A DNA stretch of 64,000 nucleotides. Origin: Leptothoe kymatousa TAU-MAC 1615. Its GTDB lineage: Bacteria > Cyanobacteriota > Cyanobacteriia > Phormidesmidales > Phormidesmidaceae. Shown in pieces: positions 33,856 through 58,314 of the stretch (positions within the stretch are counted from its first letter, which is position 1; the number at the start of each line of letters is the position of its first letter). A model generated the notes under the pieces. That model saw only the letters and a program-made list of their open reading frames with translations. It was not told where the DNA came from and ran no database searches. The translations under genes were made by a program, and so were the position numbers. Location: assembly GCF_018739865.1 (NCBI RefSeq), contig NZ_JADOER010000004.1:627067-691066 (forward strand). Reading direction: 5' to 3'.

Positions 33856-34344
33856 CTAGCTAAGAGCGTTGATTGCGTAATCAATGTAAGCGTTAGCTTC
33901 AGTAGCCGCTTGACCACCTAGACCGTGGCTAGACTTGATGAACTTCAGCGCTTCGATATACCAGCTAGGAGACAATTCGTAGGCACGATTGATCTCATCT
34001 AGACCAGCTACCAAGTACTCATCCATGGGACCAGTACCACCAGTTACCAAGCAGTAGGTAACCATGCGTAGATAGTAACCGACGTCACGAACACACTTGG
34101 CTTTACCTTCTGCAGTAGAAGCATAGGTAGGACCAGGAGTAGTTGTGGTGTAAGGAAACTTGCTGTAAACGGCGTTTGCTGCACCAGAGCATAAGGCATC
34201 AGCCTTAGCAGTCAAACCTTTAGCGGCTTCCATACAAGCAGCAGCTCGTTGGAAACGACCAAATGCAGACTGAATCTCGGTGGAACTCAGGAAACGACCT
34301 TGTGAATCAGCAGCTGATACTGCTTCAGTCAATGGGGTTTTCAT
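33856..34344 (-). CDS. cpcA: C-phycocyanin alpha subunit
   Basis: 162 residues, the standard length. The bilin-binding Cys84 is in [17 protein letters not shown], and typical alpha-phycocyanin stretches are [20 protein letters not shown] at the start and [18 protein letters not shown] near the end. One phycocyanobilin is attached by CpcEF encoded downstream. A ribosome site (GGGAGAT) precedes the start. It is 116 bp behind cpcB in the same operon. Confidence 0.98.
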
Positions 34345-34460: not shown

Positions 34461-34979
34461 TTAGGCAACTGCAGCAGCAGCGCGATCAAAGTAGCCGGAA
34501 ATCTCAGCCATGAGATTGGAACAGTCGCCAGAAGTAATGCCGTTGGAATCGTTAGCGATCGCAAGGGCAGCTTCCTTCATTTTCTGAACGCCAATGGCAA
34601 CAGAAGCACCGGGAGTACCAAGGGCAACGTAAGTCTCGCGAAGACCGTTCAAACAACGGTCGTCAAGTACGCTGGCATCGCCAGTGAATACAGCGTAGGT
34701 TACGTAGCGCAGGATAATTTCCATATCGCGTAGGCAGGCAGCGTTACGACGGCTAGTGTAAGCGTTACCACCGGGAGCGATAAGGGAAGGCTGCTCTGCA
34801 AACAAAGCACGGGCAGCGTTAGTTACGATAGCGGATGCATTACTGGTAATGCGGTTAACAGCGTCCATACGCTTGTTGCTGTCAGCAACCATAGCGGACA
34901 AAGCATCCAATTGAGCACTGCTGAGATATTCGCCTCTTGCATCAGCCTGGGAGACGACCTTAGCAAACGCATCAAACAT
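34461..34979 (-). CDS. cpcB: C-phycocyanin beta subunit
   Basis: 172 residues. Both chromophore cysteines are present: Cys82 in [18 protein letters not shown] and Cys153 in [10 protein letters not shown]. The conserved Asn72 region (GGNAYTSRR) that is methylated in beta subunits is intact. The start is preceded by a strong ribosome site (TTTAGGAGAG). It opens the cpcBAEF operon; a long leader of more than 400 bp separates it from the pebAB terminator hairpin. S-type (Cys82) and T-type (Cys153) lyases are available from genes in this window. Confidence 0.98.
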
Positions 34980-40738: not shown

Positions 40739-41317
40739 ATGGCACCATCCCTCAGTCCCCACGTTAAGGAATTAATTGCGAAAGCTCGGATTGTTAGTTT
40801 TGATGGCTGGCAAGAACAGTTTGGCGCCGATGCGATCGCTCATCTGCAGTCCGCCGATGACCAGCGCGTCTATTTAGACGATGCGGCCCTAGCCGCCCTG
40901 CCCGCCGGTAAAATTTCTCAGCATTTGCGTCACCACGCCAGCGCCATTGTGGATGCTGCTCGGGCCCAAGTCTTGGCCCATTTTCCCGGCATTACTGAAC
41001 CGGGGGGCGGGCTTTATCCAGCCGTTCGCGCCGAAGCCTGTTGGCGAGATTTTTGGCACTTTTTGCGTTGCATTACCTACGGTGTGGCGGCCCAACGTAC
41101 CGATTACACCAGCAAAGCCGGGTTGGAATATATGGAGCAGCTCTATCAAGAACTGCAGGTTCCCCTAGATGCCATGGTGTACGGCCTCAAGGCCTTAAAG
41201 GTCGCCAGCCAAGACCAGTTACGTCAGCAGGGGGTGACCGTTGCCGATGAGCAGCTAGCCCCTTATTTTGACCATTTAATTGATTCCCTCAGTCGTTTTC
41301 AGACCGCCGATGCCTGA
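40739..41317 (+). CDS. Phycobiliprotein-like protein retaining the bilin-binding cysteine
   Basis: 192 residues. The centre aligns with phycobiliproteins: ITEPGGGLYPAVRAEACWRDFWHFLRCITYG corresponds to the region around Cys82/84 of CpcB/CpcA, with Cys101 and the Arg103-Asp104 pair that holds the bilin. The N-terminal 50 residues (HVKELIAKARIVSFDGWQEQ, then VYLDDAAL) are unlike CpcA/CpcB/CpeA/CpeB and may prevent normal hexamer packing. The C-terminus (YMEQLYQELQVPLDAMVYGLKALK) follows the globin-like pattern. It is therefore a divergent single-bilin paralogue, perhaps a minor antenna, bilin carrier or regulator. It overlaps the following ankyrin gene by 8 bp and is divergent from the HEAT protein. 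Confidence 0.8.
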   Translation: MAPSLSPHVKELIAKARIVSFDGWQEQFGADAIAHLQSADDQRVYLDDAALAALPAGKISQHLRHHASAIVDAARAQVLAHFPGITEPGGGLYPAVRAEACWRDFWHFLRCITYGVAAQRTDYTSKAGLEYMEQLYQELQVPLDAMVYGLKALKVASQDQLRQQGVTVADEQLAPYFDHLIDSLSRFQTADA

Positions 41318-42514: not shown

Positions 42515-43375
42515 ATGGCTTTTGGACCAGCTTCACGATTGGGCGTGAGCCTTTTCGACGAGACCCCTCCAGTCGAGTGGGTTCCTGGCCTTGATAGTGA
42601 GGGCCTCGAGTCTATTATCAAAGCCGTCTATAGACAGGTTTTGGGTAACGCTTATGTGATGGAGAGCGAGCGCCTAGTGGTGCCCGAGTCCCAGTTTAAG
42701 CGCGGTGAATTGACCGTACGCGATTTTGTTCGCGCCGTAGCGAAGTCTGACATGTATCGTGCGCGCTTTTTTGAAAGCTGCCCCCGTTATCGTTACATCG
42801 AGCTCGCGTTTCGCCATCTTTTGGGACGCGCTCCCAATGGTTTCGATGAAATGAAGGCCCACAGTGCCGTTCTCGATACTGAAGGGTTCGAGGCCGACAT
42901 CGATTCTTTCGTCGATAGTGATGAGTATCAGAACGTTTTTGGCCAGGACTTCGTCCCCTATATTCGTGGGTATAAGACTGAAGCATGCAACATGGTTGGC
43001 TTCACCCACACGTTCGAACTAGTACGCGGTGCTTCCAGTAGTTCCCTTAAGGGCAGTGTCAGCGGCAAGAAGCCCCGCCTGAACTCCATGGTAATCAACG
43101 CGATTCCTGGGCCTGTTCTATCTCCGCTGTCCGCTGGTGGTACCTTCCAGACTCCTGCTGATTCTTCCCGGTCTCGCCACGGTGTGGGCGCTAGTGCTAA
43201 CGGTAAGATCTACCGGGTTGAAGTCACTAGCTACCGTTCTAAGGCCTTTAATCGTGTGTCGAAGTTCCGTCGTGCCAATAAGGTGTACATGGTTCCCTTC
43301 GATAAGCTATCCGATGAATACAAGCGTATTCATAAGCAGGGCGGTGTAATTGCTAGCATCACCCTCGTTTCTTAG
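42515..43375 (+). CDS. cpeC: Phycoerythrin-associated rod linker CpeC
   Basis: 286 residues, the usual CpeC length. The N-terminus MAFGPASRLGVSLFDETPPV is characteristic of CpeC. A pfam00427 (REP) linker domain occupies about 25-165 (AVYRQVLGNAYVMESERL, DFVRAVAKSDMYRARFF, LAFRHLLGRAPNGFDEM, DSDEYQNVFGQDFVPYIRGY) and a C-terminal CpcD-type domain (pfam01383) about 230-286 (KIYRVEVTSYRSKAF, IHKQGGVIASITLV). It fills the cavity of one phycoerythrin hexamer and joins it to the next disc. It is first of the plus-strand linker genes, followed by cpeE after 105 bp. Confidence 0.92.
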   Translation: MAFGPASRLGVSLFDETPPVEWVPGLDSEGLESIIKAVYRQVLGNAYVMESERLVVPESQFKRGELTVRDFVRAVAKSDMYRARFFESCPRYRYIELAFRHLLGRAPNGFDEMKAHSAVLDTEGFEADIDSFVDSDEYQNVFGQDFVPYIRGYKTEACNMVGFTHTFELVRGASSSSLKGSVSGKKPRLNSMVINAIPGPVLSPLSAGGTFQTPADSSRSRHGVGASANGKIYRVEVTSYRSKAFNRVSKFRRANKVYMVPFDKLSDEYKRIHKQGGVIASITLVS

Positions 43376-43480: not shown

Positions 43481-44221
43481 ATGACAGCGTTTGAATTGTG
43501 GCCCGCAAGCAGCAGTGAAGATAAGCAAGCGATTATCCGTGCTGTATATCGTCATGTTTTGGGTAACCCCCATGTGATGGAAAGTGAGCGTCTCGTCAGT
43601 GCTGAGTCTCAGTTCTGCGATGGCTCCCTATCTGTTAGAGATTTTGTCCGCGCGGTTGGTAAGTCTGATTTTTACCGTAGCCGTTATTTCGAGTCCTGCG
43701 CTCCCTACCGCTTTGTAGAGCTAAACTTCATGCACTTTTTGGGACGCGCTCCCGAGAGTCAGGCTGAGCTTTCTGAGCACATTCGCCGTTGCGTAGAAGA
43801 AGGTTACGACGCAGAAATCGATTCTTACATCGATAGCGATGAGTACCAGGCGCGCTTTGGTGAGAATGTAGTTCCCTTCTACAACGCCAACTTGACTCAG
43901 GTGGGTCAGTCCCAGGTTAGCTATAACCGCATCTTCGCCATTGATCGTGGACCTGCCCAGGTTAGCAGCGCTGTTAAGTCTGCTCAGCTGGTTTCCCAGG
44001 TTGCCGGTGCTGAAAAGGGCAATAAGATTAAGGCTGCAGCGACTAACTTGAATGCGGGTACTACTAAGCGCTTCAAGATTAAGACCACCGCTGCTAAGTT
44101 TGATGCGCCTCGTCGCGTCAGCATGAACGAGTACATTGTTTCTGCTGATAAGATGACTCCTCAAATTCAGCGTATTCACCGCACTGGTGCGAAAATCGTG
44201 AGCATTACTGAAATTGTTTAA
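43481..44221 (+). CDS. cpeE: Phycoerythrin-associated rod linker CpeE
   Basis: 246 residues: REP domain at about 10-150 (AVYRHVLGNPHVMESERLVSAESQF, DSDEYQARFGENVVPFYNANL) and a CpcD-type domain at about 185-246 (RRVSMNEYIVSADKMTPQIQRIHRTG, ending VSITEIV). The start (ELWPASSSEDKQAIIRAV) and the end match the CpeE type. A clear terminator follows, so cpeC-cpeE is probably one transcript. CpeE links phycoerythrin hexamers within the rod. Confidence 0.88.
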   Translation: MTAFELWPASSSEDKQAIIRAVYRHVLGNPHVMESERLVSAESQFCDGSLSVRDFVRAVGKSDFYRSRYFESCAPYRFVELNFMHFLGRAPESQAELSEHIRRCVEEGYDAEIDSYIDSDEYQARFGENVVPFYNANLTQVGQSQVSYNRIFAIDRGPAQVSSAVKSAQLVSQVAGAEKGNKIKAAATNLNAGTTKRFKIKTTAAKFDAPRRVSMNEYIVSADKMTPQIQRIHRTGAKIVSITEIV

Positions 44222-44561: not shown

Positions 44562-47516
44562 ATGATCAACAACACTTTGTTCCGCCCTGAAGTATTGAAA
44601 ACTAACAGGAAGAAGTTTAATCCTGATGGTTTTGATTTGGCGGCAGCGCTCAAAAAAAGGAAAGCGGCTGAAGCGGCTGAAGCGGCTACTCCTCCAACGG
44701 CTGATTTTGACGTTAATAAAAACTACCTAAGTCCGTTCTCGGATGGTCAACCTGTGGAGTTGGTTGGCACCACATCTGTGACGGATTTGGATGTTGTTAT
44801 TCGGGCTGCCTACAAGCAGGTGTTTGGCAATGCCCACTTGATGGAAAGTGAGCGTTCGGCAAATGCAGAATCAAAGCTGCGCAGTGGCGAGATTACAGTA
44901 TTAGAATTTGTGCGTCAGCTGGCTAAGTCTGATCGCTATCGTGCGATTTTCTTTGAAAATTGTTCTAATATTCGCGCGGTCGAATTAAATTTCAAGCATT
45001 TGCTGGGACGGTCTCCAGACGGCAATGGGGAAATTTCTGAGCATATTCAGATTTTGGCGGAAGGCGGCTTTGAGGCTGAGATTGATTCGTACCTGGATAG
45101 TGACGAATATTTCCAGGCTTTTGGTACCGATTTTGTTCCCTATTATCGGGGGCATAAAACTCAGTCCGGTCGCTCTGTGTCTGGCTTTACCCATTCCTCT
45201 CAGTTGGTGAAAGGGGCCTCTAGTAGCGACAAGTCCATTGCCAACAATACCGCTCCTCAGGTGCAAGCTGGGTTGCTGGGGGGTGCCCCAACCGAGATTC
45301 AGCCTTTGGCCACGTTGCCGCTTTCTACGCCAGTGATTCCTCCCCAGGAGTATGCGGCTCCGGAGCCACAGCTGACTAAGGCAGATTATATTCCGGTGTA
45401 TAAGTCAGCGACGTTTTTGTCGGAGCCCGTTAGCCCCAGCGAGTGGGTGCGCGATTATAACGCTAAGCAGGCGGCCGCCACATTCCCGGCAGCGCGTTTG
45501 AGTCAGCCGGTGCAGCAGTTTTCCGGTGCTTCTATTGAAGATAAGGATATTCTGATTCGGTTGGCCTATAGGCAGGTGTTTGGCAATGTGCACCTGATGG
45601 AGAGTCAGCGGTTGCTGACGGCTGAGTCGCAGTTTAGGGACGGCACTTTTAACGTTAAGCAGTTTGTTTGTGCCCTGGCGAAGTCGGACGCTTATCGGGC
45701 GCTGTTCTTTGAGAGTTGCTCTAATATTCGCGCCGTCGAATTGAACTTTAAGCATTTGTTGGGTCGCGCCCCTGACAACTTTAAGGAAGTTTCTGAACAT
45801 CTTGGTATTTTGGCCGCGGGCGGTTGGAATGCTGAGATTGATTCCTACTTTGAAAGTGCGGAGTATGACCAGAGCTTTGGCACCGATACTGTGCCTTACT
45901 ATGTGAGCTACTCTACGCAAACTGGTAAGAATGTTGCTGGCTACAATCGTATCTTTGAGCTGGTTAAGGGCTTATCGAGTAGCGATCTCACCATTTCTGA
46001 GTCGATTCAAACCAGTCAGCGATCGCAGCTTCAAACCGATCTGCTCAAGGGCTTCCAGCCTAATAAGGAGAACGTCTTCAATCCCAAGGGATTCCAGTTA
46101 GCCAAGGCCGTTGGCGCTCCCGTCGTTGTTGCCAAGATGGATTCGGGTTCGGCCTCGATCACGGCTGCCTACACCGACGCTTTTGCCGAACAACAGCCGG
46201 TTGAGCTGGTGCCTGGAGATAGCACCGGGCAAATCGACATTGTTATCGAGGCGGCTTACAGACAGGTGTTTGGCAATGCCCACCTGATGGAAAGCGAGCG
46301 TTTCCCCACAGCCGAATCTCAGTTGCGGAATGGTGACATTACTGTTCTAGAGTTTGTGCGGGCCCTGGCGAAGTCAGATCGATACCGCACCTTGTTCTAC
46401 GAACGTTGCACCAACCTCAAGACAGTTGAGCTGAACTTTAAGCACCTTCTCGGTCGTGCCCCTGAGAGTGGCGAAGAGATTTCCCATCACATTCAAATCT
46501 TGGCTGAGCAAGGTTTCTATGCCGAAATCGATGCCTATATCGATAGCGATGAGTATTTCCAAACCTTTGGTGCCAATGTTGTTCCTTACTTCCGGGGCTA
46601 TCAAACCCAGACCGGTAAGGGAATGGCCAGCTATACCCACTCTTTCCAGCTATTGCGGGGTGCTTCCAGCAGCGACAAGCAGCTAAGTCAGTATGGCGCG
46701 GCTGATGTTGATCGGGCTATTCTCTCCAATCACTCCAGTCGCATTCCCGATATCTCTGAACAGACCGTACCTGTGGCAGACATTCGGCCTCAGCCCAAGC
46801 AGACGCCTGCCGTTGCTAGCCCCGACTACGCCTTTGGCCTAGATGCCACCAGCCCCCTATCGGCGGTTGAGCGTACGGCTATTTGGCAAGGGCAATACAA
46901 TGCCATGGCCAATGCCGACCCCGTTAAGCTTAGCCCTGGTGCATCCGATGGAGATGTCACCCTGGTGATTAACGCCATCTACAAGCAGGTGTTGGGCAAT
47001 GCTCACATTATGGAAAGTGAGCGGCTAGCCAGTGCTGAATCCCAACTACGCAATGGTGATTTGACCGTTCGTGGATTTGTGCGGGTGTTGGCCAAGTCAG
47101 ACTTGTATAAGTCTCGCTTTATCGATAATGCCCCCCGCTATCGCTGCCACGAGCTGAACTTCAAGCATCTTCTAGGCCGTGCCCCCGAGAGCTACGACGA
47201 GACTGTGTACCACAGTGCCATGGTCGACAACCATGGCTATGACGCGGATATTGATGCCTACATTGATAGTGATGAATATGAAACCGCGTTTGGTGAGCAT
47301 GTGGTTCCTTTCTATCGGGGCTATAAAACCCAGACTGGCAAGAGCCTGTTGGGCTATGTCAATATGTTTGACCTGCTCACCAGTGCGTCTACCAGTGATA
47401 AGGCGGGGTCCACTAAGGCCCGGGTGGAGAAGCGTCTCTCCTATGAGAATCCCATTAAGGTTCAACCGGTCACCGACGGTAACGTTCTGATTCAGAAGCT
47501 GTTTGGTCTGATCTAA
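44562..47516 (+). CDS. Multidomain phycobilisome linker with four REP (pfam00427) domains
   Basis: 984 residues. Four REP domains lie at about 62-205, 316-460, 543-690 and 787-935; each shows the (A/V)Y(K/R)QV(F/L)GN(A/V)H(L/I)MES(E/Q)[11 protein letters not shown] and DSDEY-type motifs (the second degenerate, ESAEY). No ApcE-type phycobiliprotein domain and no CpcD cap is present. A short motif FNPxGFxLA occurs before domain 1 (residue 18) and again before domain 3 (residue 505), so the protein looks like two [motif-REP-REP] modules in tandem. Pro/Ala-rich linkers of 80-110 residues separate domains. By analogy with multi-REP linkers of Gloeobacter and Anthocerotibacter, it should string together up to four phycobiliprotein hexamers. 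A terminator follows. Confidence 0.9.
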   Translation: MINNTLFRPEVLKTNRKKFNPDGFDLAAALKKRKAAEAAEAATPPTADFDVNKNYLSPFSDGQPVELVGTTSVTDLDVVIRAAYKQVFGNAHLMESERSANAESKLRSGEITVLEFVRQLAKSDRYRAIFFENCSNIRAVELNFKHLLGRSPDGNGEISEHIQILAEGGFEAEIDSYLDSDEYFQAFGTDFVPYYRGHKTQSGRSVSGFTHSSQLVKGASSSDKSIANNTAPQVQAGLLGGAPTEIQPLATLPLSTPVIPPQEYAAPEPQLTKADYIPVYKSATFLSEPVSPSEWVRDYNAKQAAATFPAARLSQPVQQFSGASIEDKDILIRLAYRQVFGNVHLMESQRLLTAESQFRDGTFNVKQFVCALAKSDAYRALFFESCSNIRAVELNFKHLLGRAPDNFKEVSEHLGILAAGGWNAEIDSYFESAEYDQSFGTDTVPYYVSYSTQTGKNVAGYNRIFELVKGLSSSDLTISESIQTSQRSQLQTDLLKGFQPNKENVFNPKGFQLAKAVGAPVVVAKMDSGSASITAAYTDAFAEQQPVELVPGDSTGQIDIVIEAAYRQVFGNAHLMESERFPTAESQLRNGDITVLEFVRALAKSDRYRTLFYERCTNLKTVELNFKHLLGRAPESGEEISHHIQILAEQGFYAEIDAYIDSDEYFQTFGANVVPYFRGYQTQTGKGMASYTHSFQLLRGASSSDKQLSQYGAADVDRAILSNHSSRIPDISEQTVPVADIRPQPKQTPAVASPDYAFGLDATSPLSAVERTAIWQGQYNAMANADPVKLSPGASDGDVTLVINAIYKQVLGNAHIMESERLASAESQLRNGDLTVRGFVRVLAKSDLYKSRFIDNAPRYRCHELNFKHLLGRAPESYDETVYHSAMVDNHGYDADIDAYIDSDEYETAFGEHVVPFYRGYKTQTGKSLLGYVNMFDLLTSASTSDKAGSTKARVEKRLSYENPIKVQPVTDGNVLIQKLFGLI

Positions 47517-47986: not shown

Positions 47987-48748
47987 ATGGCACTTTGGGT
48001 AACCAATGCTGTGCCCGTTGAACTTCGCCCCAATGCAACCGAGGATGACCTGCAAACGGTCATTCGTGCTGTATATAAGCAAGTTTTAGGCAACCAGCAT
48101 GTGATGGAGAGCCAGCGTTTAATTAGCGCTGAGTCTTTACTGCGTGATGGCGATATCACAGTTAGAGGATTCGTCCGGGCAGTAGCCCAATCAGAGCTTT
48201 ATCGCTCCCTCTTTTTTGAGAGTTCTTCGGCTTACCGTTTTATTGAGCTAAACTTCAAGCACTTGCTTGGTCGTGCTCCTCAAGAGCAATCAGAAATCGC
48301 CAACCATGTAGCGCTTTACAATGAGCATGGCTATGTAGCGGAGATTAACTCCTACATCGACAGCGATGAGTACACTGCCAGCTTTGGTGAAAATAGTGTG
48401 CCATCGGTGCGGGGTAACCAAACCCAGACGGGTGTTAAAAACGTTGGCTTCAACCGTACGTTTGCCCTTGAGCGCGGTGATGCTACTAGCGATCGCAGCA
48501 ACCAAGCTAAATTAATTAGCGATTTGGGTGGCAATTTAGCGACTAAAATTGCAGCGCCCCAAGCGGGGACCGGTCGGACCAGCACTAATAAGCGATTCCG
48601 GATTACGGCTAGTACCTCTACCGCTGCAGCCGCTCTGGGCCGTGTTAGCAAGCAGCAGTACGTTGTTTCCTATAGCCAGATGTCCCAGCGTATTCAGACT
48701 ATTTTGAAGTCGGGCGGCAAAATTCTGAGCGTCACTGAAACCAACTAG
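47987..48748 (+). CDS. Phycoerythrin-associated rod linker, CpeD paralogue 1
   Basis: 253 residues; ribosome site GGAGG 7 bp before the ATG. REP domain at about 15-155 ([59 protein letters not shown]) and CpcD-type domain at about 195-253 ([23 protein letters not shown]). The N-terminus [20 protein letters not shown] is of CpeD type and resembles the next gene closely, so the two are tandem duplicates. A hairpin between them could lower expression of the second. Confidence 0.85.
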
Positions 48749-48763: not shown

Positions 48764-48795
48764 ACACCAGCAGAGAATTCATTCTCTGCTGGTGT
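48764..48795 (+). terminator. Hairpin between the two cpeD genes
   Basis: ACACCAGCAGAGAAT (48764-48778) and its exact complement (48781-48795) make a long perfect palindrome with a minimal loop right after the first gene, then TGTGTTGT. Without a strong T run it may act as a partial terminator or mRNA-processing/stability element rather than a full stop. Confidence 0.7.
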
Positions 48796-48860: not shown

Positions 48861-49613
48861 ATGTCCCTTTGGATTAATAATGAAGCAGTTGAGCTGCGCC
48901 CCAATGCTAGCGAAGAAGACCTACAGGTTGTTATTCGTGCTGCGTACAAACAAGTTTTGGGTAATGCCCATGTCCTAGAAAGTCAGCGTCTAACCAGTGC
49001 TGAATCTATGCTCAGAAATGGGGAAATCACTGTGCGTGGTTTTGTCCGTGCCGTTGCTACTTCGGACATCTATAAGGCTCGCTACTTCGATAATGCCTCT
49101 CCTTACGGATTTATTGAGCTGAACTTCAAGCATCTGTTGGGTCGTGCTCCCCAGGACCAATCTGAGATTGCTGAGCATGTGCAGACCTACAATGCATCTG
49201 GCTACGATGCTGAAATTGATTCTTATCTCGACAGTGATGAGTATCTGTCTGCCTTTGGTGAAAATGTTGTGCCCTATGCCTGTGGCGCTAGCCAAACGGG
49301 TGTGAAGAACGTGGCCTTTAACCGCATCTTTGCCCTAGATCGTGGCTATGCCGCTAACGATACTACTAAGGGTGCCAAGCTAATTAGCGATGTTGCCGGT
49401 AATCTGGGTACTAAGATCAAGTCCCCTGCTACCGCTTCTGGTGCCTATAGCAACACAGGCAAGCGTTTCCGCATTGTGGCCACCAAGGCTAACTTTGGTA
49501 GTCGGGTCACTAAGAGTAACTACAGTGTGGAAGTTGGCTTCAGTCAGCTATCTAACCGCATTCAGAACATGCAGCGCTCCGGTGCCACCATCGTTAGCAT
49601 TTCAGAAGCATAG
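48861..49613 (+). CDS. cpeD: Phycoerythrin-associated rod linker CpeD
   Basis: 250 residues from the ATG at 48861, which follows TTTAGGAGAAAAGG; a longer TTG-initiated frame would overlap the upstream hairpin and is rejected. REP domain at about 10-150 ([63 protein letters not shown]) and C-terminal CpcD-type domain ([23 protein letters not shown]). It links phycoerythrin discs, by family knowledge usually the core-distal or middle position. Confidence 0.9.
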
Positions 49614-49748
49614 GCCTAGGTTTCTGGCTTATTAGGCATGAAGTTTTTACGGTAGTGGCTCAACTTTTGGAGCGATTGTTTGTAAAAACTATCTTGCCTA
49701 ATGAGTCGGTTGTGTTTGAAAAGTTTGGTGTATTGCGAGGTAATAACC

Positions 49749-49988
49749 ATGGCAGGAATGATAACAACGGGTTGTGCCGGCGTCAGTGACTACGGCTCCC
49801 GTTCGGTGACAATCGATGTGGCTAATGTGGCCCGTCAAGATGTGGCAAAAACTAGCAACTATCAGGTGAAGGTTCCTTTTAGCCAAATGTCCCAAACCAT
49901 GCGAAATATCGCTGAGTTAGGCGGCAATGTGGTCGGCGTCTCTGTGTCTGGTGCGGCTCCGGCTTCGACTGGAAGTTCAGATGACTAG
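49749..49988 (+). CDS. Small CpcD-domain rod-capping linker
   Basis: 79 residues from the ATG at 49749. The entire protein is a pfam01383 CpcD-type domain: SRSVTIDVANVAR, then YQVKVPFSQMSQTMRNIAELGGNVVGVSV. Such small linkers cap the distal end of rods and limit their length. The Ser/Gly/Ala tail has no charge pattern. It is part of the cpeD-cpeS stretch and is paralogous to the CpcD-like gene at 50808. Confidence 0.85.
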   Translation: MAGMITTGCAGVSDYGSRSVTIDVANVARQDVAKTSNYQVKVPFSQMSQTMRNIAELGGNVVGVSVSGAAPASTGSSDD

Positions 49989-50807: not shown

Positions 50808-51170
50808 ATGGTAGGTATTACCAGTGGCTCTGCCTTGAGTGATGATCGCTCACGCGCTGTGGTGATTGATGTAGCTGGCATGGCAAATCAGACGATTTCC
50901 AGAGTTAGTAATTACCAGGTCAAGGTTCCCTTTAGCCAAATGTCGGCGGCTATGCGCACGATTTCCGCCCAGGGAGGGAAAGTGGTGCATGTTTCAGTTC
51001 AGGGTGGGCCGCCCCAAGCTCCCCAAACCCCACAAGAAACCCCAGATTCAAAACCGGCAAAAGCTACAACCAAGAAAACTGGCACCAAAAAAGCGGCTAA
51101 TAACAAAAAGAAAAATATAGTTTCCCGCTTGACGAATCGGAAGGGACGTCGTTCTAAGAAAACCTCCTAG
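50808..51170 (+). CDS. CpcD-domain linker with a lysine-rich C-terminal tail
   Basis: 120 residues. Residues 1-65 are a CpcD-type domain (SRAVVIDVAGMANQTISRVSN, YQVKVPFSQMSAAMRTISAQGG), very similar to the small linker at 49749. Residues 66-120 are a Pro/Gln stretch (GPPQAPQTPQETPD) and then a strongly basic tail with clusters such as KKTGTKKAANNKKK and RKGRRSKKTS. Normal CpcD caps lack such a tail. It could contact membrane lipid, nucleic acid or an acidic neighbour rod. A ribosome site (AGAGGA) precedes the start and a clear terminator follows. Confidence 0.85.
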   Translation: MVGITSGSALSDDRSRAVVIDVAGMANQTISRVSNYQVKVPFSQMSAAMRTISAQGGKVVHVSVQGGPPQAPQTPQETPDSKPAKATTKKTGTKKAANNKKKNIVSRLTNRKGRRSKKTS

Positions 51171-52955: not shown

Positions 52956-53528
<573 letters not shown>

Positions 53529-53550: not shown

Positions 53551-54084
<534 letters not shown>

Positions 54085-54841: not shown

Positions 54842-55771
54842 ATGCTTAAAAAGTTGTCTGGTGTCTTGGAGCTAAAGCTGCCATTACTTGATAAGGGTGA
54901 ATCAAGTCGGCCAAAAGCTGCTGAGTCAAAGCCTGTTGCTGCCCCCAAGCCCCCTCAGGATACTAAGACTGCGGCTGCCGCTCCTGCCGTTAGCAGTCAG
55001 GCTGCACCAGCGAGTGCCGCTACAACGTTGCCAGCGAAGTATATGTCCGCCGTGGCGGGTAGCCCTATTGCTGAGTTTATTAACGAAACTGCATCCGTCG
55101 AGAATGCGGACCTAGTCATCGAAGCTGCCTATAAGCAAGTTTTTGGCAATGCTTATTTAATGGACAGCGAGCGTTCCAAGGTAGCCGAGTCTAAGGTGCG
55201 CAGCGGTGAGATTAGTGTTCTAGAATTTGTTCGCAGCTTGGCAAAGTCCGATCGATACAGAATGCTTTTCTTTGAAAAGTGTCCTAATGTCACTGCGGTT
55301 GAGCTCAATTTTAAGCATCTGTTGGGTCGTGCCCCTGACAGTTACGAAGAAATTGCTCAGCATCTTAGAATTTTGTCAGAAGAAGGATTTGACGCAGAGA
55401 TTGATTCCTATCTTGACAGTGACGAATACTTTTGTACGTTTGGGGATATGCAGGTCCCTTACGTTCGAGGCTATACCAGCCAAGTGGGTAAGTCCTCCGT
55501 GGGCTTCACCCGTTCCTTTGCGTTGTTTGGTGCCGCCTGCAGCAGCGATAAGTCTAAATTTGCAGATGCAGCTACTGCTGATCTGAAGCCCGGCTTGTTG
55601 CAAAGCTCCCCCGGCACTATTCCTCCCCTTAACCCAATTCCTGATTCAGCCGCCCAGGTTCCGGTTAAGGTGCCGATGCCTCGCTACCCTCAGGAGTTGA
55701 AGCTCATGGCGAGGGAGCTGTTGTCGGAAATTCAGGAAAGACAGGGTAAAGGCCCCTATTGCAATTACTAG
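54842..55771 (+). CDS. Single-REP phycobilisome linker with a long Ala/Pro-rich N-terminus
   Basis: 309 residues. Residues 1-65 are low-complexity (KAAESKPVAAPKPPQDTK, then AAAAPAVSSQAAPASAATT). One REP domain at about 75-220 ([63 protein letters not shown]). The KQVFGN and KVRSGEISVLEFVRSLAKSDRYR pattern is closest to domains 1 and 3 of the four-REP linker. There is no CpcD domain; the C-terminus ends in an amphipathic helix (ELKLMARELLSEIQERQ). It might anchor a rod to the core or to the membrane, or initiate a rod; CpcG-type assignment is not supported by sequence I can recognise. Confidence 0.85.
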   Translation: MLKKLSGVLELKLPLLDKGESSRPKAAESKPVAAPKPPQDTKTAAAAPAVSSQAAPASAATTLPAKYMSAVAGSPIAEFINETASVENADLVIEAAYKQVFGNAYLMDSERSKVAESKVRSGEISVLEFVRSLAKSDRYRMLFFEKCPNVTAVELNFKHLLGRAPDSYEEIAQHLRILSEEGFDAEIDSYLDSDEYFCTFGDMQVPYVRGYTSQVGKSSVGFTRSFALFGAACSSDKSKFADAATADLKPGLLQSSPGTIPPLNPIPDSAAQVPVKVPMPRYPQELKLMARELLSEIQERQGKGPYCNY

Positions 55772-55965: not shown

Positions 55966-58314
55966 TTAACGGAAATTCCGCTGTTGCCACTTGTTCAGAC
56001 GGTTAGCGCCAATGGTGGCTAACGCCTGGGCTTCCATAAGTTCGCCCCGTAGTCGTTCAATTAAAGCGGCTTTTTCGTCAGACTGCCGGGAGGGACTGCT
56101 ACCCAAAACTGCTTTTGTCTGGGTGCCTTTTCTCAGCACAGATGCGCCAATGCTGGCGGAAGGACGCAGGCTTGCCAACTGTTGTTGCAGTTTGGCAATG
56201 AGTAAATCCTGTTCGCTAGTTTGGGGTTGGGGGGTGGCAGGCGTGGGTGTTGTTGTCGGTGGAGTAAATTTAAACACCTCTGCCAAAATATCTTGGGCAT
56301 CGCGGGGCTTGCTGACCTTGGGCTCCTGATAGGGCAGGATGCCATTGGTCACCCGTGGGCGATTATCCGTTAGATCCTTGTCGCTGCTGGAGGCTCCCTT
56401 GAGTAACGACAACATGTTGGTAAATTCCACCATGGTTTGCCCTGGAGCGCTTTCGTAACCTCGATAGTAGGGCACGATATTCTCACCAAAGGCGTTGTTG
56501 TACTCATCGCTATCGATATAGCTATCGATGTCGGCGGCATAGCCTTCGGTATCCAAAATTGCGCTGTGGGCCTTCATTTCAGCGAAGTTTTGTGGTGCCC
56601 GCCCGAGCAGGTGCTTAAAGTGCAGCTCCATGGCGCGATACCGATAGCAGTTGGTAAACCGAGACTGGTAGAGCTCCGATTTCGCCACCTGGCGCACAAA
56701 CTCGCGCACGCTAAGTTCTCCATTTCTGAGTTGAGACTCGGGCACTACCAAACGCTCACTTTCCATAATGTGGGCATTGCCCATCACCTGGCGATAAACT
56801 GCTCGAATGACCACTTCAATCTCATCTGTGGAAGCACCGGGGATGAGTTCGACGGGTAGGGTTTGTCGGAAGGGGGCATAGCCCTTGAAGGTGTGCTGGT
56901 TAGCAACTTGTTCGGGGGTGGGTTCGGGCTCTGCCTGGAGGAAGGTGGGGGTGTAGGTAATGTCGGCGGGGCTGCTTAGGGGTGCGATCTCATCAATCTG
57001 CTCAGCCATCAGTGCCTTGGTTAGCCGTGCTTGGGATTGATAGTAGGCAGGATTGTTGTCATTGCTCGCGTTACCGCGCAGCAGCCGCAAGAGATTGGCA
57101 AACCCCGCCACCTTTTGCCCGGTGGGAGACTGATGCCCACGATAATAGGGCACGGTGTTTTCGCCAAAGGCTAGCAGATATTCTTCACTATCCAGATAGG
57201 TGTCAATGTCTGCCTCAAAACCATGGGTTTCTAAAATGTTGCTATGGTCGGCAATGTCGCTATAGCTGTTGGGGGCACGGCCCAGGAGATGTTTGAAATT
57301 TAATTCAATAAACCGGCTGCGAGAGCAAGGCTCGAAAAAGCGGCTGCGATATAGTTCAGATTGGGCCACCGCTCGGATAAACCCACGCACACTAATTTGG
57401 CGATTGAGTAAAAGAGATTCGGCCTCTGCCAACGCCGCTCGCTCGCTTTCCATCACATGGGCATTGCCCAACACTTGGCGATAGACGGCTCGGATCACCA
57501 CATCAACCGCTTCCGACGAGTCATGGGCCCACAGTTCAACGGGGTCTGCTTCATTAAAGGCCTGGGTGCCCAGTTGAATGGCCTGCGGGTCGGCCTTTGC
57601 CACAGCTAGCTCAGGGTGCATGAGGGCATAGGCTTCAGCGGTGATGGGGGTGCGCCATTCGGTTTTGGGCCGGGTGACGGGGGCGATTTTGCCTACGGCA
57701 TTGCCCATGGTGGCCTGATTTAATCGGGCTTGTTGACTGTTGGCCACATTGTTGTCATGGCTGGCGGCCCCCCGCAATAGTTTTAGAAAATTGGGAAAAC
57801 CCGCCACTTTTTGCCCGGTGGGAGAGCGATGCCCGCGATAGAAGGGCACCGTGTTTTCCCCAAAGGTGCGGTAATACTCATCGCTGTCGAGGTAAGAGTC
57901 AATTTCTGTTTCGAATCCCGCAGACTCTAGAATGTCGCTATGGCTGGCAATGTCGTCGTAGCTGTTGGGGGCACGACCCAATAGGTGTTTAAAGTTAAGT
58001 TCGATGGAACGATTGCGCGAGCATGGCTCGAAGAACCGGGAGCGATATAGGTCAGATTTTGCCACGTGGCGCACAAAGTCGCGGACGGTGATGGCGCGGT
58101 TATGGAGCTGTGATTCGGCCTCTGCTAAGGTTGACCGTTCGCTTTCCATCACATGGGCATTGCCCAGCACCTGCCTGTAAACAGCGCGAATAACGACATT
58201 AACGGTTTCTAAAGAATCACTCGGCCATAACTGCACAGGATCTGTTTCATCAAAGGCTTGGGTGCCTAACCTAATGGCAGAATTGATAACAGGATTTGCA
58301 AATGTGCTGACCAT
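55966..58314 (-). CDS. Multidomain phycobilisome linker with three REP domains and a coiled-coil tail
   Basis: 782 residues. REP domains at about 25-170, 257-405 and 488-635. Domains 1 and 2 are very alike (each preceded by LGTQAF(D/N)E.DPV.LW, and both with [20 protein letters not shown] and FGENTVP.YRGH), so they arose by recent duplication; domain 3 ([22 protein letters not shown]) is closer to CpeC. The tail (about 660-782) has a Thr/Pro stretch and two helical segments each ending in a similar motif: LRPSASIGASVLRKG and ALATIGANRLNKW. No CpcD or ApcE phycobiliprotein domain. It resembles the three-REP linkers reported for Gloeobacter. Role inferred: chaining three hexamers and, through the tail, docking to another complex. 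Confidence 0.9.
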   Translation of the reverse strand: MVSTFANPVINSAIRLGTQAFDETDPVQLWPSDSLETVNVVIRAVYRQVLGNAHVMESERSTLAEAESQLHNRAITVRDFVRHVAKSDLYRSRFFEPCSRNRSIELNFKHLLGRAPNSYDDIASHSDILESAGFETEIDSYLDSDEYYRTFGENTVPFYRGHRSPTGQKVAGFPNFLKLLRGAASHDNNVANSQQARLNQATMGNAVGKIAPVTRPKTEWRTPITAEAYALMHPELAVAKADPQAIQLGTQAFNEADPVELWAHDSSEAVDVVIRAVYRQVLGNAHVMESERAALAEAESLLLNRQISVRGFIRAVAQSELYRSRFFEPCSRSRFIELNFKHLLGRAPNSYSDIADHSNILETHGFEADIDTYLDSEEYLLAFGENTVPYYRGHQSPTGQKVAGFANLLRLLRGNASNDNNPAYYQSQARLTKALMAEQIDEIAPLSSPADITYTPTFLQAEPEPTPEQVANQHTFKGYAPFRQTLPVELIPGASTDEIEVVIRAVYRQVMGNAHIMESERLVVPESQLRNGELSVREFVRQVAKSELYQSRFTNCYRYRAMELHFKHLLGRAPQNFAEMKAHSAILDTEGYAADIDSYIDSDEYNNAFGENIVPYYRGYESAPGQTMVEFTNMLSLLKGASSSDKDLTDNRPRVTNGILPYQEPKVSKPRDAQDILAEVFKFTPPTTTPTPATPQPQTSEQDLLIAKLQQQLASLRPSASIGASVLRKGTQTKAVLGSSPSRQSDEKAALIERLRGELMEAQALATIGANRLNKWQQRNFR

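Follow-up and report, generated by a model that had tools for sequence, protein, structure and literature searches.

A stand-alone phycobilisome linker with four REP domains and a repeated peptide motif in Leptothoe kymatousa and its relatives

A gene of the cyanobacterium Leptothoe kymatousa TAU-MAC 1615, here called P1, encodes a phycobilisome linker with four REP domains (PF00427), without a CpcD domain and without the phycobiliprotein domain (PF00502) of ApcE, and so raises the question of what such a protein might hold together and how it came to be built. P1 lies in a phycobilisome gene region of 64,000 nucleotides (contig NZ_JADOER010000004.1, positions 627,067 to 691,066), which was analysed as a whole and is called the window below. 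Genomes, contigs and loci of our sample carry labels beginning with G, C and L. We read P1 as a stand-alone multi-REP scaffold like CpcN and Glr1262, with a separate origin probable and a part in a phycoerythrin antenna the most likely role, and we give this reading about an even chance of being right.

PF00427 matched P1 in four stretches in a Pfam search (summed score 632.4 bits, E 2.4e-193), and neither PF01383 (CpcD) nor PF00502 was among the Pfam matches. The preliminary description of this locus, made from the letters of the DNA, had named four pfam00427-like domains in a 984-residue open reading frame with no ApcE phycobiliprotein domain and no CpcD cap, and all of this is borne out. 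In a search of the whole genome the four stretches scored 151.7-171.6 bits each against a cut-off of 28.7. Having four REP domains and no PF01383, P1 is not a rod linker of the ordinary kind (one REP followed by CpcD), and its four domains set it apart from the MpeD type, with two linker domains; it lacks the N-terminal PF00502 of ApcE, which the two ApcE genes of the source genome have. Its content is that of the CpcN/Glr type, with at least two REP domains, no CpcD and no PF00502, and this domain content agrees with the earlier proposal of a multi-hexamer linker analogous in architecture to the multi-REP linkers of Gloeobacter and Anthocerotibacter. With domain borders set by a REP model built in this analysis, the spacers between the REP domains are 109, 87 and 98 residues long, and they are alike in five full-length copies (109, 84-87 and 97-98). 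These lengths are nearer to those of CpcN (90, 79, 78, 79) and Glr2806 (84, 86) than to those of ApcE (111, 55 and 109, 56) or Glr1262 (130, 121). We would like to note that the NCBIfam CpcG2 model NF058512 scores 422.9 on P1, as a sum over four stretches, against a cut-off of 420, so automatic annotation could label such proteins CpcG2; P1 falls below the cut-offs of the NCBIfam CpcG1, CpcG3 and CpcG4 models.

Full-length orthologs with 78-84% identity (L043-L046) are present in Leptolyngbya sp. Heron Island J, Leptolyngbya sp. PCC 7375, Adonisia turfae and the metagenome-assembled genome (MAG) MAG.088, and with orthologs in these named relatives the host genome is not gloeobacterial; we take the genus to belong to the crown cyanobacteria with thylakoids. 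The four-REP P1 is full-length in five of the eight genomes of the genus and cut by contig ends in two others (residues 487-984 in G001, 807-984 in G006), and it was not found in the eighth, G002. Whole-gene comparisons of four pairs gave dN of 0.08-0.14 and dN/dS of 0.05-0.07, with dS of 1.5-2.1, values above 1 being near saturation. P1 is thus a real gene under purifying selection.

Outside the genus, a class-wide search was made of a sample of 388 genomes, in which up to two candidates per genome were scored and REP counts are lower bounds. Among the best matches, those listed, a single long relative bearing the same N-terminal head peptide (residues 1-63 of P1) came from outside the genus, in G336, which belongs to the same family and another genus. 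It is 751 aa long from its ATG, is 58% identical across residues 1-734, and has three REP domains and both copies of the motif discussed below in the order motif-d1-d2-motif-d3, without REP4. A second relative, in G170 (L115 7707-8528), has 273 aa, one REP and the same head; hardly anything separates this head from the segment found ahead of REP2 in P1. The G170 gene adjoins genes on the opposite strand that resemble carboxysome genes by eye.

The motif FNPxGFxLA occurs at residues 19-27 and 506-514, as first described before domains 1 and 3, and begins 45 residues ahead of REP1 and 40 ahead of REP3. An exact-pattern search of the DNA of the eight genus genomes found it twice in each of the five full-length P1 copies and once in the cut G001 copy, with no match elsewhere in these genomes and none for a reversed control pattern; the source genome is only 75% complete, so absences there are weak. 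In the class, 15 of the 388 genomes contain the pattern, and eight of these (G000, G001, G003, G004, G005, G007, G336 and G170) are accounted for by the P1 family. The remaining seven contain a single match apiece, in a frame (24-461 aa) in which a regular expression found no REP signature, and since the reversed control gave six matches in the same listing, these seven are at chance level. By these exact-pattern searches the motif is above chance among the 388 genomes solely in P1, in its three-REP form (G336) and in its one-REP form (G170), and a regular expression did not find FNPxGF in CpcN, Glr2806, Glr1262, the P2-type linkers or r5 (P2 and r5 are two further linkers of the window; Table 1). 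In an alignment of seven family members that takes in the three-REP and one-REP forms, sixteen head residues besides Met1 (N4-P9, R16, K18-P21 and G23-A27) are invariant in all seven. The open-licence literature that was searched, mostly at the level of titles and abstracts, has no mention of the repeated motif, consistent with the earlier impression that it is undescribed.

The assignment of P1 to phycoerythrin comes mainly from its gene neighbours, namely r5 after cpeBA, P1 itself among rod linkers, and the cpeBA pair of G336. In both the window and Heron Island J, P1 stands among linkers with REP and CpcD on the contig stretch that bears cpeB. In G336, 1.6 kb separate the three-REP form from a cpeBA pair (cpeB called by the NCBIfam model, cpeA by PF00502, size and position), and a two-REP relative of r5 (L113 8377-10011) adjoins this form. 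CpeB over its cut-off was found in 12 of 14 genomes examined. CpeC, CpeD and CpeE are names for rod linkers. The window also encodes two bilin reductases, three CpeS-type proteins and one CpeT-type protein; the features discussed here are given in Table 1.

Table 1. Features of the window discussed in the text, with positions counted from the first letter of the window
Feature	Position	Strand	Remarks
P1	44562..47516	+	ATG start, 984 aa; four REP (PF00427), no CpcD, no PF00502
P1 head peptide, residues 1-63	44562..44750	+	ahead of REP1; from alignment of family members
P1 motif copy 1, FNPDGFDLA, residues 19-27	44616..44642	+	ahead of REP1
P1 REP domain 1, residues 64-205	44751..45176	+	Pfam and REP model built here
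P1 conserved segment, residues 277-317	45390..45512	+	ahead of REP2; from alignment and the G170 relative (L115 ORF, open reading frame)
P1 REP domain 2, residues 316-458	45507..45935	+	Pfam and REP model built here
P1 motif copy 2, FNPKGFQLA, residues 506-514	46077..46103	+	ahead of REP3
P1 REP domain 3, residues 546-687	46197..46622	+	REP model built here; 68% identity to REP1
P1 REP domain 4, residues 787-928	46920..47345	+	closest to P2-type REP; missing in the three-REP relative
cpcA, phycocyanin	33856-34344	-	
cpcB, phycocyanin	34461-34979	-	
r1, ordinary rod linker	42515..43375	+	REP and CpcD
r2, ordinary rod linker	43481..44221	+	REP and CpcD
r3, ordinary rod linker	47987..48748	+	REP and CpcD
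r4, ordinary rod linker	48861..49613	+	REP and CpcD; ATG inside a frame opening at 48792
Stand-alone CpcD-domain protein	49701..49988	+	possible hexamer cap; start may be further in
Second stand-alone CpcD-domain protein	50808..51170	+	120 aa, long basic tail
cpeB, phycoerythrin beta subunit	52974..53528	+	NCBIfam NF058508 over cut-off
cpeA, phycoerythrin alpha subunit	53590..54084	+	NCBIfam NF058506 over cut-off
r5, single-REP linker	54842..55771	+	309 aa, no CpcD; downstream of cpeBA
P2, stand-alone linker	55966..58314	-	782 aa, three REP, no CpcD

Two observations on the neighbourhood may be recorded here. A 192-aa phycobiliprotein-like protein with PF00502 is encoded at 40739-41317 (+); it reaches no NCBIfam subunit cut-off, the best being apcB with 66 bits against 228, and a weak match to the CpeB model in a frame of similar size occurs in at least seven of the eight genomes of the genus. 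The idea that stand-alone CpcD proteins are special to genomes with P1 was dropped, small CpcD-only frames being present near linkers in genomes in which no P1 was found.

An N-terminal arm, several REP domains, spacers of the length found in CpcN and Glr2806 and the lack of CpcD give P1 the same anatomy as the CpcN and Glr linkers, and a similar way of working is proposed from this. Each REP domain would fill the cavity of one hexamer, probably of phycoerythrin, and the spacers of 84-109 residues would keep the hexamers next to each other, chained or bundled, in the way that has been reported for phycocyanin with CpcN and Glr2806. Lacking a CpcD domain of its own, P1 should not stack hexamers in the manner of a rod linker; another rod could grow on each hexamer that it holds, or a separate protein of the CpcD type could cap that hexamer. 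For the repeated FNPxGFxLA we propose, from two things, its conservation and its repetition, that it docks both motif-bearing units (1 and 3) on the same kind of surface of a partner. A variant of this arrangement, unlikely in our judgement though the strongest of the alternatives, is that P1 bundles as many as four ordinary rods by their base hexamers, as Glr1262 is reported to do for three rods (excerpts of PMC12525769), instead of forming a CpcN-like chain of single hexamers. The four linkers with REP and CpcD in the cluster would allow rods to grow on hexamers held by P1, whereas the P1 spacers (84-109) are shorter than the 130 and 121 residues of Glr1262 and nearer to CpcN and Glr2806, and the stand-alone CpcD proteins could cap each hexamer, a point that is not decisive since such proteins also occur in genomes without a found P1.

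The origin of P1 was approached through trees of single REP domains. Tree 1 holds 83 of 114 extracted domains, leaving out the Adonisia P1 and P2 copies, the Adonisia single-REP rows, two further Glr2806-like rows, one of the two ApcE genes, G184, the second G213 protein, four rows with a one-REP tail and one single-REP row of contig C1; tree 2 holds 88 domains, 72 of the 114 and 16 new ones, and is also without ApcE, CpcG-like rows and some others, mostly long-branched. The genes for CpcN, CpcJ, Glr1262 and Glr2806 were recognised in G035 and G113 by full-length matches to Protein Data Bank (PDB) chains, and the labels Glr1263-1265 are our assumption from gene order after glr1262. In tree 2 these four proteins group with rod linkers of contig C1 of the source genome (97/88, 16 rows), which are located near a CpcB-like gene and which we take to be phycocyanin linkers. 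They belong to one part of that tree (96/86, 31 rows), and P1 d1-d3, d4, r1 and P2 to the other (96/86, 57 rows).

Descent of P1 from CpcN, Glr2806 or Glr1262, vertically or by transfer, with phycocyanin hexamers as its cargo, would account for the similar spacers and for the best solved-structure matches of P1, which are CpcN (714.6 bits), Glr2806 (492.8) and Glr1262 (473.4), ahead of ApcE (356.7). Summed bit scores favour proteins with several REP domains, however, and these ranks are discounted for that reason. Domain by domain, the best identity of CpcN, CpcJ, Glr1262 and Glr2806 to P1 is 49-57%, against 53-60%, a small margin above, for ordinary rod linkers (from phycoerythrin clusters and Gloeobacter) and 69% between the r5 REP and P1 d1. 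Both trees keep P1 apart from the four proteins, and forcing P1 d1-d3 and r5 into one clade with them costs 18.0 log-likelihood (lnL) units, though the approximately unbiased (AU) test does not reject it (p 0.11). Such descent strikes us as improbable, and convergence of P1 with the CpcN and Glr linkers is favoured, without proof, by these comparisons.

P1 itself probably grew by the addition of REP units to a single-REP linker, and not by descent from a linker of Gloeobacteria. In tree 2 one clade holds P1 d1, d2 and d3 with r5, the G336 domains and the G170 domain (100/98, 21 rows); d2 clusters with G336 d2 and the G170 REP (95/92, 6 rows), d1 and d3 cluster with r5 (98/91, 15 rows), and d4 goes with REP1 of P2-type linkers that have two REP domains, from G336 and G023 (91/85). 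Identities within P1 are 68% for d1-d3, 62% for d1-d2, 59% for d2-d3 and 48% for d2-d4, the lowest pair, and d4 is 63% identical to P2 d3 and 68% to G336 P2 d1. The preliminary description had taken the whole protein for a tandem duplication of a two-domain module (motif-REP-REP), and part of this stands: as judged by identity and motif placement, unit 3, a motif with its REP, and unit 1 are copies of each other, and a profile comparison of the two motif regions gives a match (probability 74% over 14 columns). The other half is not supported: d2 and d4 form no matching pair, d4 is P2-like, and the segments ahead of REP2 and REP4 show no match (p 0.107; profile probability 1.7%). The linker between d1 and d2 does align with that between d3 and d4 (z 14.2), but mainly in a stretch of some 40 residues following the REP, where all pairs of units are alike. 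A forced clade of d2 and d4 has AU p values of 0.129 (set 1) and 0.0538 (set 2) and so is disfavoured without formal rejection, and the G336 protein has the order motif-d1-d2-motif-d3 without d4; we rate the doubled module as quite improbable. Together, the trees, the identities and the lack of d4 in G336 argue for growth by single units, the fourth of another flavour, over a doubled two-REP module. Loss of REP domains in G170 or G336 is possible, as the direction among one, three and four REP domains is unrooted. That P1 is an ApcE core scaffold minus its phycobiliprotein domain, a possibility which the preliminary description had left to a per-domain phylogeny, is scarcely credible and was rejected, for although ApcE too can have four REP domains (excerpts of PMC12525769) and ApcE chains are among the PDB matches, the spacers differ, the ApcE REP domains (from one of two genes) fall outside the linker clade in tree 1 (99/92), and two intact ApcE genes with PF00502 and three REP domains each lie elsewhere in the genome, on contigs C1 (L077 14112-16829) and C14 (L078 1675-4371), within a total of 26 REP matches.

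Several observations weigh against a phycoerythrin scaffold of separate origin. On the side of the trees, the alignments have few columns (142-143), tree 1 places the P1 clade on an unresolved fork, and in tree 2 the linkers r2, r3 and r4 of the phycoerythrin cluster fall in the CpcN/Glr part, so that phycoerythrin and phycocyanin linkers are not cleanly split; the AU value for the joint clade with CpcN, CpcJ and the Glr proteins, given above, points the same way. Forcing all P1 domains and r5 into one clade costs 0.78 lnL units and is not rejected (AU p 0.453), which makes another source for d4 a possibility and no more. On the side of the neighbourhood, P1 of Leptolyngbya PCC 7375 stands amid unrelated genes, and Adonisia and MAG.088 have the P1 site of PCC 7375, judged by upstream DNA. 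The DNA upstream of P1 in the window has no match to that of PCC 7375 or MAG.088 and matches Heron Island J over only 16 bases, and with matches so limited the flanks do not indicate whether P1 entered the linker cluster or left it. Two fragmented MAGs, G003 with a full P1 and G006 with a cut one, yielded no CpeB above its cut-off. In G002, another member of the genus, no P1 is seen where the r2- and r3-type linkers follow each other (L122 11914-12331), and P2 has two REP domains (L093 8070-9761), from which it follows that both REP expansions vary inside the genus. On the side of the protein, a PDB search with the 63-residue head returned one chain, a replication protein (E 0.15), and nothing related, and an AlphaFold model of P1 with four orthologs was poor (predicted local distance difference test, pLDDT, 40.3; predicted template modelling score, pTM, 0.27), with helical blocks where the REP domains sit and spacers below 50.

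Other multi-REP linkers came to light in the sample. Relatives of P2 carry one, two or three REP domains, and counts of REP domains showed two-REP forms in nine genomes (G043, G184, G293, G255, G318, G023, G170, G336 and G002); two-REP frames of this type elsewhere are 539-603 aa long, and the C-terminal tail of P2 has two stretches that look alike by eye. G213, of an unrelated lineage, encodes a protein with three REP domains and a terminal CpcD (L091 6903-8894), in which REP2 and REP3 are very close in the tree, and a further linker with three REP domains that reaches the contig end (L092 6473-8410), and a two-REP protein is present in G100. The two-REP proteins of G212 and G358, which we take to be MpeD by size and host type, have d1 set apart and d2 with r2-type linkers in tree 1.

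These findings matter since the host lies outside the groups to which multi-REP linkers were reported to be restricted: CpcN-type linkers are presented as relicts exclusive to Gloeobacteria (excerpts of PMC10696076), and Glr1262 and Glr2806 as unique to Gloeobacter (excerpts of PMC12525769). In the open-licence literature searched, mostly titles and abstracts, no stand-alone linker with three or more REP domains is reported outside Gloeobacteria. What looks new is therefore a four-REP stand-alone linker outside Gloeobacteria, with a family of one-, three- and four-REP forms and a private repeated peptide. REP number varies in three groups of linkers (1, 3 and 4 in the P1 family, 1, 2 and 3 in the P2 type, 1 and 2 in r5), and we tentatively suggest, with somewhat less than even confidence, that growth in REP number gave cyanobacteria other than Gloeobacteria multi-hexamer scaffolds of their own, independently evolved and probably serving phycoerythrin, possibly with a phycobilisome shape not seen before in which chained or bundled hexamers are docked through the private FNPxGFxLA. 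If a separate origin and the phycoerythrin side are correct, it would follow that antennas of the chain or bundle type can arise anew, and REP number would be an evolvable dial for antenna size. The presence of P1 in the named strains PCC 7375 and Heron Island J makes the prediction testable, and Leptolyngbya sp. Heron Island J shows chromatic acclimation (PMC3916487).

Set beside known systems, P1 is most readily compared with CpcN of Anthocerotibacter panamensis (PDB 8imn), which is likewise stand-alone, with several REP domains, no CpcD, no phycobiliprotein domain and similar spacers, and which differs in its five REP domains against four, its place in the other part of the tree, its lack of FNPxGF and its phycocyanin hexamers. 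Excerpts of PMC10696076 describe the host of CpcN as thylakoid-free, one phycocyanin hexamer on each REP of CpcN with the hexamers forming a loosely staggered chain, and a CpcD at each REP that likely blocks rod formation. Glr2806 and Glr1262 of Gloeobacter violaceus (PDB 9k9w) share with P1 several REP domains, an N-terminal arm before the first of them and the lack of a CpcD domain (in a motif-free REP scan made here); unlike P1 they have three REP domains, phycocyanin hexamers, no motif and a place in another clade. According to excerpts of PMC12525769, cryo-electron microscopy (cryo-EM) has these two attaching or bundling hexamers, Glr2806 using REP1 to attach one more hexamer, its N-terminal arm lying on the core, and Glr1262 gathering the bases of three rods. 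MpeD of marine Synechococcus, a chimera of two linker domains (excerpts of Six et al. 2007, PMC2246261), is, like P1 as read here, a multi-domain phycoerythrin linker of a non-gloeobacterial host, with two linker domains against four. Closer at hand, the P2-type linkers share the region, several REP domains and the lack of CpcD (in the two scanned) and are nearest to P1 REP4, differing in a C-terminal tail, in lacking FNPxGF and in that REP1-3 of P1 belong to another clade. Finally, r5, with one REP (two in G336) and no motif, resembles P1 in lacking CpcD, in standing beside cpeBA and in a REP domain that falls in the clade of P1 REP1-3.

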